A stretch of 36,312 bases of DNA from a virus. Shown piece by piece: positions 21,679-23,876 of the stretch. The translations under genes and the position numbers were made by a program. Below the pieces are notes generated by a model that saw only the letters and a list, made by a program, of their open reading frames with translations, did not search any database and was not told the origin of the DNA. Each line of letters starts with the position of its first letter. The stretch's first letter is position 1. The stretch is from IMG/VR virus record IMGVR_UViG_3300050821_002747, positions 1 to 36,312 of that record; one strand, 5' to 3'.

Positions 21679-23019
21679 ATGACACCCTATAATGATTTGA
21701 GGGTGCGCCGAATTTCAACAAGAGTTGTCATCGACATGGAGTCGATGGCAGTCGTGGAACGGGATTCCTACGAGTATTCCGGTCCTGTTGATTTGGCTGC
21801 GCCGCCCTCGAACTTGCAATCAGTAGCACTACAGCTTGAAAAGGTAAGGAAAACAGTTCCGACCGCCTACGAGCAAGAGCACATCCTGCTCGACATGATC
21901 GACAAGCGGGGTGATGTCATTGATGCGTCTACCCGCAACATCAGGTTACCGATTCTGGTCCGTCCTGGCGGCAAGTTCTCTCAAGGAACGGCAGATTTTG
22001 ATGACATGGGCCGCGGTTCAGGGTCAACCTGGGACGTGGGCACCTTGTCCACTCTGCATTTCCGTTTCGCTTTCGAGGTCAGCAAGCTGTCGGAGTACGC
22101 CACCAAGGGCAACGACAAGGCCATCGAGGACGTTGCAGTCCGGGAAGTGGCCGAAGCGATGAAGATGTTCAAGCGTGCCCTCGATTGCGTCTACCAGAGC
22201 AACGGCACCGGCACGCTCGACAGCATCGTCACCGTCGCCGGTAACGTCTTTACCGTCACCAATCCCAATATCTTTTACTTTAACCAGGACATTCAGGTAT
22301 ACCCCTCTGGCCTAGCATCGGCTTCCCGCGGCCTCGCCACCGTGACTCAGGTTGATCCTTTGCTCAAGACCATTACGGTCAACGCGGCCCCTGCCGGAAC
22401 CAGCAACGGCGATGCGCTTGTCCTCAACATCAGCCAGGGCGCGGGCGGGGCGAATCCTGTCTCGCTTGAAGGGCTCCTCTACAATCACGTGGATTCCGCG
22501 TCAGGCTCATGGAACAATCTGGCCCGATCCACCTACCCTGAAATTCTCAAGACTCCGCACGTGGCAGCGGGAGGCGCGACAATCACACCTGCCCTTCGTC
22601 GTCTTGGCGAAAACAAGATCCGGCGCGTTCTCGGCGTCGAGTTTGACGAACCCATGGTTGCCTTCATGAACGTGGACCAGGAAGCTGCCTGGGAGAACGT
22701 CGGGGTGGCCGTGACCAGCGACATCAGGTCGATGCAGAAGGGCGAAAATTCACCAGACATGCTTTCCCGACGGCCGGCCAAGACCTTTGGCGGCATTCCC
22801 ATCAAGACCTCCATTCACGCCACTATCCAGCGCATTGATGTGATCTGCCTCAAGCACTGGGGCAGAGGCGTGACCAAGGAAGTCGATATGTTTGAGCTTG
22901 GCGGGCAGACCACGTTCCAGCTCTATGGGCAGTCAGGCGGCTTGCTGGCTGGCTACCTGTGCTACTTCGATAATTGCCGTGTCGAAGATTCCATGACTGA
23001 CGTTGAGAAGGCGGCCTGA
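21679..23019 (+). CDS. Major capsid protein
   Basis: 446 residues from ATG 21679, with AAGGAGA 6 nt upstream. It directly follows the scaffold-like gene, and has a long alpha/beta sequence with coat-like segments (LPILVRPGGKFSQGTADFDD, TLHFRFAFEVSKLSEYATKG, FDEPMVAFMNVDQEAAWENV, KTFGGIPIKTSIHATIQRID). The N-terminal 40 residues (RISTRVVIDMESMAVVERDS, then YEYSGPVDLA) resemble a short conserved peptide that I know from separate small phage proteins, so it may be a fused module. The group I intron-like sequence begins 7 bp after the stop. Confidence 0.75.
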   Translation: MTPYNDLRVRRISTRVVIDMESMAVVERDSYEYSGPVDLAAPPSNLQSVALQLEKVRKTVPTAYEQEHILLDMIDKRGDVIDASTRNIRLPILVRPGGKFSQGTADFDDMGRGSGSTWDVGTLSTLHFRFAFEVSKLSEYATKGNDKAIEDVAVREVAEAMKMFKRALDCVYQSNGTGTLDSIVTVAGNVFTVTNPNIFYFNQDIQVYPSGLASASRGLATVTQVDPLLKTITVNAAPAGTSNGDALVLNISQGAGGANPVSLEGLLYNHVDSASGSWNNLARSTYPEILKTPHVAAGGATITPALRRLGENKIRRVLGVEFDEPMVAFMNVDQEAAWENVGVAVTSDIRSMQKGENSPDMLSRRPAKTFGGIPIKTSIHATIQRIDVICLKHWGRGVTKEVDMFELGGQTTFQLYGQSGGLLAGYLCYFDNCRVEDSMTDVEKAA

Positions 23020-23026
23020 CGGTGTT

Positions 23027-23300
23027 CAACGTTTTTATGGACCTTCCTTTGTTAACGCTGGGGAAGGATAAATCTCCTCTGATTGACTCGAACGCTGCGA
23101 TGCCAACGAGGGCCAAGCAAGCGAAAGCTGTGCAGGCTGAGAGACTAAGCGGGGAGACGCTGCAAGGCGATGCAATAGTCCGCTCTCACGGTAAAATGAA
23201 CTGTGAGAGGTCGGCAGAAATGACCGACCCCCTTCATGTGAAGGGTAACAATGGGCGAGCGGGATTGTTCTTTGATGGACTCGCGTTACCGGTGGGAGGC
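23027..23300 (+). ncRNA. Group I intron-like RNA after the capsid gene
   Basis: Elements in group I order can be drawn: P1 GUUCA/UGGAC with a U.G pair (U23026.G23040), P2 CUUCC/GGAAG (23043-23047/23062-23066), P3 UCUCCUC/GGGGAGA (23073-23079/23151-23157), P4 CUCG/CGAG, P6 with a GAAA loop (23112-23137), P7 GACUA/UAGUC (23143-23147/23176-23180), P9 CUCUCAC/GUGAGAG (23183-23209), then P9.1 and P9.2 hairpins to 23245. GAGACTA ... ATAGTCC is the usual P7 signature. The 3' splice site is not certain. It would lie in the gap between the capsid gene and the HNH gene. Confidence 0.55.
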
Positions 23301-23319
23301 TATTAGAACTATTAATTAC

Positions 23320-23347
23320 TTGACTTGCTCGCTAAATATGTTATAAT
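23320..23347 (+). promoter_or_regulatory. Consensus promoter of the EndoVII-like HNH gene
   Basis: TTGACT (23320-23325), 16-bp spacer, perfect TATAAT (23342-23347), ending 7 nt before ATG 23355. The transcript should begin at or next to the start codon. Confidence 0.8.
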
Positions 23348-23354
23348 GGTGAGC

Positions 23355-23876
23355 ATGACAACTCAAATAGGTGGAGAGTGCGAGTCTTGTGGCAGGCCAC
23401 TCGTACTCTCTACCTCGAATCGAAACAAAGGTCAGCCGATAACTTGTATTTGTAAGGGCCGGGAGTATCACAGGAACTATGGGCAATCTAGACGAACAAA
23501 TCATCATAAGCGCCCCACGATTCCGTGGCATGAATCGCGTAGCCTTGTGGATGCTAGAACCAATCAGGCAAGCAATGAAGCCCACAAGGAGCAGCAAGCG
23601 GAATGGCGCGGGAAAAATCTGGACAAGACCAAGGACTACTTTCGCAAGCACGCTTATGGTCTTGCTCCGGGGCGTTACGATGAAATGCTCGTTGAACAGG
23701 ATGGCAACTGCTTTTTATGTGGCAAGCCAATGTCCAGACCTCACATCGACCACAATCACAAAACGAAGCAGGTTCGCAAGTTGCTTTGTGGCGGTTGCAA
23801 TATGGCCGTTGGAATCATCGAGGCTGACCCGACGTGGATTACAAGAACTCAAGAATATCTAAAAGGAGATTGCTGA
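23355..23876 (+). CDS. HNH nuclease, endonuclease VII family
   Basis: 173 residues. The C-terminal domain is that of recombination endonuclease VII: C119-x2-C122 (CFLC), HIDHNHKT (D132, H133, H135 for the catalytic centre), C145-x2-C148-N149 (LLCGGCN). A second set of Cys at 9, 12, 31 and 33 may bind another zinc. It sits beside the group I intron-like RNA, under its own promoter, with a leaderless start; MLAKYVIMVS upstream is ignored because it lies in the promoter. It is probably a homing nuclease that moves with the intron. The stop overlaps the start of the next gene (TGATG). Confidence 0.85.
   Translation: MTTQIGGECESCGRPLVLSTSNRNKGQPITCICKGREYHRNYGQSRRTNHHKRPTIPWHESRSLVDARTNQASNEAHKEQQAEWRGKNLDKTKDYFRKHAYGLAPGRYDEMLVEQDGNCFLCGKPMSRPHIDHNHKTKQVRKLLCGGCNMAVGIIEADPTWITRTQEYLKGDC

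Follow-up and report, generated by a model that had tools for sequence, protein, structure and literature searches.

A soil-phage capsid gene in the window (36,312 nucleotides of viral DNA, IMG/VR record IMGVR_UViG_3300050821_002747) is annotated as ending in a TGA behind which a structured RNA lies, and the question is where this gene really ends. The earlier note on this DNA had placed a group I intron-like RNA at 23024–23300, with its splice site 7 bp beyond the stop of the capsid gene and a host exon that seemed not to be coding. Relatives lacking the segment, which it had suggested as a check, were found and fixed the splice sites: in 50 of the 51 readable relatives, all except L003, the capsid C-terminus was unbroken. 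Judged by the intronless relatives, the splice site lies 29 nt after the TGA, and both of its flanks are capsid C-terminal codons. The stop itself belongs to a separate 47-nt insert at 22972–23018, which had been missed. From these comparisons, the capsid gene probably consists of three exons separated by two introns, with a single catalytic core for both.

Of the 51 readable relatives, 22 were IMG/VR loci; the other 29 came from bacterial genome contigs, all of these labelled Acidobacteria or related MAGs, and the latter capsid relatives (L150–L178) suggest an Acidobacteria-type host phylum for the window's phage. L178 was counted despite an end consisting partly of N. L005, L015, L018, and L024, which end inside the capsid, and L025–L032, which match the N-terminal stretch only, stand outside the 51. 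BLASTN of the locus and tblastn of the capsid against the phage collection gave no match, and the predicted capsid structure was set aside at a mean pLDDT of 44.4. The first 41 capsid codons of the window (21676–21798) were missing from close relatives, and capsid residues 10–61 matched L025–L032, unrelated-looking loci, at about 56–67% identity; this N-terminal segment may be foreign in origin.

A spliced protein-DNA aligner was written for this analysis, with a protein as its only input and no splice rule. For the window its output was two inserts, 47 and 207 nt long; for L003 it was two of 35 and 216 nt, and L012 had no insert. The second window junction was ambiguous by one base in the aligner, and the rule of U before and G at the end of an intron placed the boundaries at 23048/23049 and 23255/23256. 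The features of the proposed arrangement, all on the + strand, are as follows.

21676–22971, +: capsid exon 1, with U22971 as its last base and ...GYLCYFD as the end of its translation (L001 capsid in the spliced alignment; relatives)
22965–22971, +: P1 exon strand of the putative mini-intron, CUUCGAU, with u.G at the splice site (guide pairing test)
22972–23018, +: putative guide-only mini-intron, 47 nt, ending in G (relatives without the insert; protein alignment; guide test)
22975–22980, +: P10 strand of the mini-intron guide, UGCCGU, partner exon 2 ACGGUG at 23019–23024 (guide pairing)
22981–22987, +: mini-intron guide, P1 strand GUCGAAG (guide pairing test)
23019–23048, +: capsid exon 2, 30 nt, TVFNVFMDLP (intronless relatives; codon comparison)
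23042–23048, +: P1 exon strand of the full intron, CCUUCCU (pairing and exon change together in L003)
23049–23255, +: full group I intron, 207 nt (covariation, covariance models, spliced protein alignment)
23061–23067, +: full intron guide GGGAAGG (pairs with exon CCUUCCu)
23070–23234, +: full intron core match (covariance model R2)
23073–23079 and 23151–23157, +: full intron P3, 5′ strand TCTCCTC and 3′ strand GGGGAGA (sequence and covariation alignment)
23143–23147 and 23176–23180, +: full intron P7, 5′ strand GACTA and 3′ strand TAGTC (sequence and covariation alignment)
23256–23306, +: capsid exon 3, RAGLFFDGLALPVGGY and stop TAG (intronless relatives; codon comparison)
23320–23347, +: promoter-like site before the endonuclease gene, TTGACT-16-TATAAT (11/12 consensus matches only)
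23355–23876, +: EndoVII-like HNH endonuclease gene (PF02945 match; start codon uncertain, open frame from 23325)

Close relatives end in ...YFDTVFNVFMDxPRxGxFxDGLALPVGGY and a stop. In the window, the 3′ coding end MDLP^RAGLFFDGLALPVGGY plus stop is split by the full intron, and the 47-nt insert, which holds the first two bases of the TGA, sits 30 bases upstream of that intron, between the YFD and TVFNV codons. This insert was missing in 50 of 51 relatives, and L003 has 35 nt there. In the spliced alignment, removal of the mini-insert restores the host reading frame; removal of the full intron restores the frame DLP^RAGLFF as in L001, provided that the mini-insert is removed too. With both introns out, the protein would end ...YFD^TVFNVFMDLP^RAGLFFDGLALPVGGY before the stop. 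Between the window and L003, the capsid codons past the stop differed by 13 synonymous and four non-synonymous changes (3/4/16 by codon position), indicating that they are under protein selection. The C-terminus was kept down to relatives of about 40% identity, and TVFNVFMD, which ranks among the most conserved capsid stretches, showed only synonymous change between the window and L003.

The RNA at 23049–23255 is supported as a group I intron, as the earlier note had recognized with too wide an extent, and on its own it is an already known kind of element. P3, P4, P5, P6, P7, P8, P9, and P9.1 were all present on the + strand, and alignment and model R2 placed a P3–P8 core with P7 as a pseudoknot. 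The earlier placement of P3, P6, P7 (GACTA/TAGTC), P9, and P9.1 stood, and its P2 proved unneeded; its P1 with U.G exists and was imprecisely located, being formed by exon 23042–23048 and guide 23061–23067. Over 38 aligned family members, including the window and L003, 96.2% of the cells of the group I structure were paired, and 25 of 38 pairs showed both-sided changes. The covariation score was 0.529 against 0.172 for shuffles (0/500 as high) and at most 0.10 for slid controls. P3, P5, P6, P8, P9, and P9.1 covaried, and P4 and P7 were invariant in the 38 members and hence outside the reach of this test. The intron ends were those of group I, with U at the end of the 5′ exon, u.G in P1, and an intron-terminal G. 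The intron appears, from its sequence, to be a self-splicing ribozyme.

Model R1 was built with the window and L003, and model R2 from 31 relatives without either. R2 matched the window with 155.8 bits (E 3e-33, 23070–23234) and L003 with 140.9 bits, and gave no match in L001, L002, L012, L021, L148, or L149. The covariance-model check that the earlier note had proposed succeeded with the family model; with Rfam it returned no group I match in the locus, at gathering or at E up to 10 (RF00028). The same note would have taken the lack of a covariance-model hit as refutation, a test that would have misfired here, given the Rfam miss despite the R2 match. RF00028 misses most members of the full intron's family as well, and its miss was read as a limit of that model. 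R1 reaches more distant introns too, e.g., in L034 and L065, where its weak matches overlapped the sole RF00028 matches seen. A search of viral contigs for the motif GAGACTAAGCG...GATGCAATAGTCC gave 82 stretches, or 89 copies once the window was added. In most copies the P1 guide pairs with whatever exon is present (four copies were stemless by simple search), and in L003 the P1 is formed by exon ACUGCCCu and guide GGGGCAGU. L058, L106, L039, and L045 carry tandem full introns of this family with cores 221–247 nt apart, which means that the intervening exon is very short, and L107 near 1922–1965 looks, by eye, like two tandem introns fused by deletion.

The mini-insert, at 47 nt, contains no catalytic core; the model match in the window lies at 23070–23234 only. 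It starts after U and ends in G, with a P1 of 7 bp carrying u.G at the junction and a P10 of 6 bp. The guides 5′-UGCCGU-GUCGAAG-3′ in the window and ACCGU-GUCGAAG in L003 are complementary to the ligated exons CUUCGAU^ACGGU. The sole wobble in L003 is the u.G exactly at the junction, and the window has two further wobbles at the far P10 end. Shuffled inserts reached the guide score in 127 of 400,000 trials for the window and 24 of 400,000 for L003, two cases that are not independent of each other; the P1-like stem alone was unconvincing before P10 was added (shuffled fractions 0.035 and 0.012). The two inserts share CCGTGTCGAAGATTCCATGA exactly, and both have the in-frame TGA at their end; over 179 bases, beginning at the stop codon and reaching into the full introns, the window and L003 were just 74% alike. 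CTGACG occurs twice within or at the end of the window's insert (CTGACGTTG and CTGACGGTG), as if it had grown by a small repeat relative to L003. Exon duplication was rejected as the source of the 47 nt, local similarity being no better than in shuffles. By eye, readthrough of the stop retains the wrong frame, and no slippery site for a −1 frameshift was seen.

Spliced protein alignment located 22 distinct mini-inserts of 34–52 nt, with 34 occurrences in total, in three capsid families, including those of the window and L003. The register of U before and G at the end, together with a P1 and P10 guide, was found in 22 of 22, each reaching the lowest attainable p, 0.0002, when compared with other positions in its own gene for which an equal number of registers was tried. 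The mini-inserts of the window, L003, L059, L089, and L093 were first noticed via the guide (L089 was seeded by the guide scan), and the other 17, located by protein alignment without the guide, all passed the guide test. All 22 contain an in-frame stop, including the eight whose length is divisible by three, and six lie inside a codon. The stop may keep ribosomes off the downstream intron until splicing. A loose scan of 2.7 Mb for guide units gave 169 matches against 164 in reversed sequence; with no excess, the guide alone is not diagnostic. Some of these matches fell in capsid genes of intron-rich phages and were used as leads only.

The second capsid family comprised 80 relatives picked by an uninterrupted N-terminal stretch. 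Together with the intron loci, it was aligned to intronless references (116 genes, 91 at a score of at least 1000). With the window's family included, these sets yielded 18 distinct mini-inserts in 27 occurrences, among them those of the window and L003. The third family, 52 loci fetched via an exon far from the mini-inserts, added four distinct mini-inserts in seven loci; 34 of its 52 genes had full introns only, showing that the mini-insert is no necessary companion of full introns, and 11 had no introns. Mini-inserts in genes scoring below 1000 were left out (e.g., the 51 nt of L073/L096, and L114), as were inserts shorter than 30 nt; for the third family this limit was 28 nt, and inserts at or ahead of about the start codon were left out too. 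L226 was set aside for poor alignment. L089 and L110 were kept as exceptions to the score limit, their genes having partial cover (residues 1–190 and 231–343, respectively), and the near-identical mini-inserts of L047 and L060 were counted as two.

In 34 of 34 occurrences, the next element 3′ of the mini-insert was a longer insertion, 18–120 nt away. For most mini-inserts it matched R1 or R2. In L047, L060, L065, L089, and L093, it was a 619–663 nt insertion with no model match (that of L093 had been cut in two by the aligner). Inspection by eye of four of these five insertions showed a P7-like motif and a reading frame of LAGLIDADG type, and the five were judged by eye to be group I. Among the 80 loci selected by N-terminus, 65 had no insertion, 12 had a mini-insert and a full intron, two had a full intron only, and one was poor. 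R2 matched in 12 of 12 mini-bearing loci of this set and in none of the 22 others searched.

At four exact sites, a mini-insert and a longer intron replaced each other between phages: TACGAT^AA (mini-insert in L047, L060, and L093; long intron in L122), GAGAACCT^CAA (mini-insert in L089; long intron in L047 and L060), CCAGTAT^GA (mini-insert in L059 and L065; full intron in L047 and L060), and CTCGGCCCT^GA (mini-insert in L253; full intron in L246 and L074). Guide-exon comparisons at sites shared between phages gave 16 double changes that keep pairing and two one-sided changes, and 11 comparisons paired in one member only, all at helix ends. The 42-nt mini-insert of L074 was dropped from this count because its site differs, which lowered the double changes from 31 to 16; the other two counts do not involve it. 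Guides thus track exons at shared sites. The position and boundaries of the mini-insert, its guide pairing, its recurrence, the longer intron downstream, and the interchange with full introns are established computationally. In the simplest history, we infer, a full intron lost its core and became a mini-insert, a loss that would be tolerated because another core lay close by.

Laboratory-made cores reportedly accept an external guide RNA (the sunY work of Doudna and Szostak), which makes it chemically reasonable that a neighbour's core acts on a second P1. In the window, the downstream intron would be a compact group I ribozyme whose guide pairs with CCUUCCu and which would splice itself out. 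The 47-nt insert would supply its own P1, with u.G at the 5′ splice site, its P10, and its terminal G, and would borrow the core of the full intron, which begins 30 nt further on. Its excision would take place at the RNA level and would be performed by that neighbouring core. According to PMC3984707, P1 is the helix by which a group I guide fixes the 5′ site, and P10 does so for the 3′ site; the mini-insert has exactly these guide elements and nothing else. A comparison of mini-insert tails with the partner intron revealed no docking sequence, and tail-to-partner pairing was without specificity. Neither the 207-nt full intron of the window nor the 216-nt one of L003 contains a stop in the capsid frame, so that a window transcript from which the mini-insert alone had been removed would encode a capsid longer by 69 residues. 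If the 207 nt left while the 47 nt stayed, the capsid would end ...VEDSMTDVEKAA.

Other explanations of the insert were weighed. The bypass gap of T4 gene 60 is 50 nt long, close to the 34–52 nt of the inserts, and a hairpin is present at the junction, which would suit a ribosome hopping over the insert. Of all the readings, this one is the least credible, because the triplet before the insert equals that at its end in 0 of 22 cases, six of the 22 interrupt a codon, and the frame-restoring matched codon pairs in the window drop or swap conserved residues. T4 gene 60 has matched take-off and landing codons, whereas the mini-inserts lack them and have a group I guide and splice ends. Template switching can produce inverted copies of flanks, and mini-inserts are probably products of deletion, both of which would be compatible with a dead relic or a template-switch inverted repeat in a truncated capsid whose remainder is decaying. 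That is very unlikely in view of the selection on the codons behind the insert, the C-terminus conserved to relatives of about 40% identity, the concerted change of guides and exons at shared sites, and the longer introns retained downstream in 34 of 34 occurrences.

The capsid could also be made in two pieces, with a stop at the insert's TGA and a restart at a GTG two bases on. The purine-rich AGAAGG (window) or GAGGAG (L003) that precedes TGAcgGTG speaks for it, split genes are known from T4-like phages (PMC2988022), and the window and L003, taken alone, also fit. Nevertheless, a restart leaves the guide, the U and G ends, and the other 20 mini-inserts unexplained, and a Shine-Dalgarno-like stretch with a start codon at that place occurred only in the window and L003 among 18 mini-inserts checked. 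We consider such a split unlikely, and a separate 25-residue C-terminal peptide made once the 207-nt intron is spliced no more likely. If the insert were instead an alternative 5′ splice site, a second P1 for the downstream intron that joins YFD to RAGLFF, the product would be in frame, and Twort Orf142 offers a precedent in which an exon between neighbouring group I introns is skipped (PMC10136302). The mini-insert's P10 has exon 2, not exon 3, as its pairing partner, which makes this use of the insert highly improbable; a product skipping the ten residues TVFNVFMDLP is just as improbable, since TVFNVFMD is highly conserved and changes only synonymously between the window and L003. Guide-directed excision by the shared core is the reading preferred here.

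The earlier note was right about the EndoVII-like HNH gene just downstream, which matched PF02945 (58.7 bits, cut-off 23.6, E 5e-16), and about a promoter ahead of it, at least as a promoter-like site with 11 of 12 matches. An EndoVII gene also follows the intron-bearing capsid of L003, and EndoVII-like genes lie directly after intron-free capsids in L002 (6626–6877) and L021 (6261–6785). In L059, an EndoVII-like HNH frame was seen by eye within an intron of the window's family. Cooperative homing of the intron and the EndoVII gene, which are co-located, is plausible. The S-PM2 psbA intron and F-CphI, an endonuclease-free intron beside a free-standing HNH gene, reportedly home collaboratively, and T4 mobE with the nrdB intron (PMC2988022) is a further case of collaborative or trans homing with this layout. 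The window has the same layout, as a putative pair.

By the accepted view, a group I intron comes with a ribozyme of its own, and the group III introns of euglenid plastids are shortened introns relying on a catalyst elsewhere. The degenerate group II and group III introns and twintrons of these plastids resemble the mini-insert in that respect; on the other hand, they have group II chemistry and domains, whereas the mini-insert has a guide of group I type that forms P1 and P10. In size and helices, the full intron resembles compact phage group I introns such as those of the Jug phages (about 206 nt; PMC12363816), and like the LittleE mycobacteriophage capsid-gene intron (PMC3706429) it lies in an essential phage gene. 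In both, as in the window, the exon ends in U and the intron in G; the parts of the two papers available to us mention no coreless companion, which the window has, and unlike these introns the window's family escapes RF00028. Two introns flank a short exon, as in the window, in Twort Orf142 (23-nt exon) and Coxiella 23S (34-nt exon; PMC10136302), with crosstalk between P1 and core as a likely further similarity; there both introns have a core, whereas the upstream one in the window has a guide and splice sites only. T4 gene 60 with mobA likewise combines an insert of about 50 nt, an in-frame stop, and a nearby homing endonuclease (PMC2988022 for mobA). No coreless group I intron turned up among the open-access papers listed in literature searches. 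The mini-insert lacks the core, the defining feature of the sole family in which it could be filed; if splicing by the neighbour's core holds, it may be named a non-autonomous variant of group I introns.

Taken as a class, phage capsid genes probably harbour non-autonomous, guide-only introns of 34–52 nt that are excised by a group I core 18–120 nt downstream. It is quite likely, on the comparisons made here, that P1, P10, and a terminal G are all that is left of these introns, and that two introns depend on a single core. An insert of 35–50 nt with an in-frame stop creates a false gene end, with the result that capsid genes of such phages will be annotated truncated, and the compact intron family mostly escapes Rfam's group I model. 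If true, the arrangement would show in nature a ribozyme that works on a splice unit other than its own. It would provide a small, testable model for self-splicing introns becoming guide-only and served by a shared catalyst, and would represent, within group I, a naturally occurring stage on the way to introns that keep a guide only and leave splicing to separate machinery.
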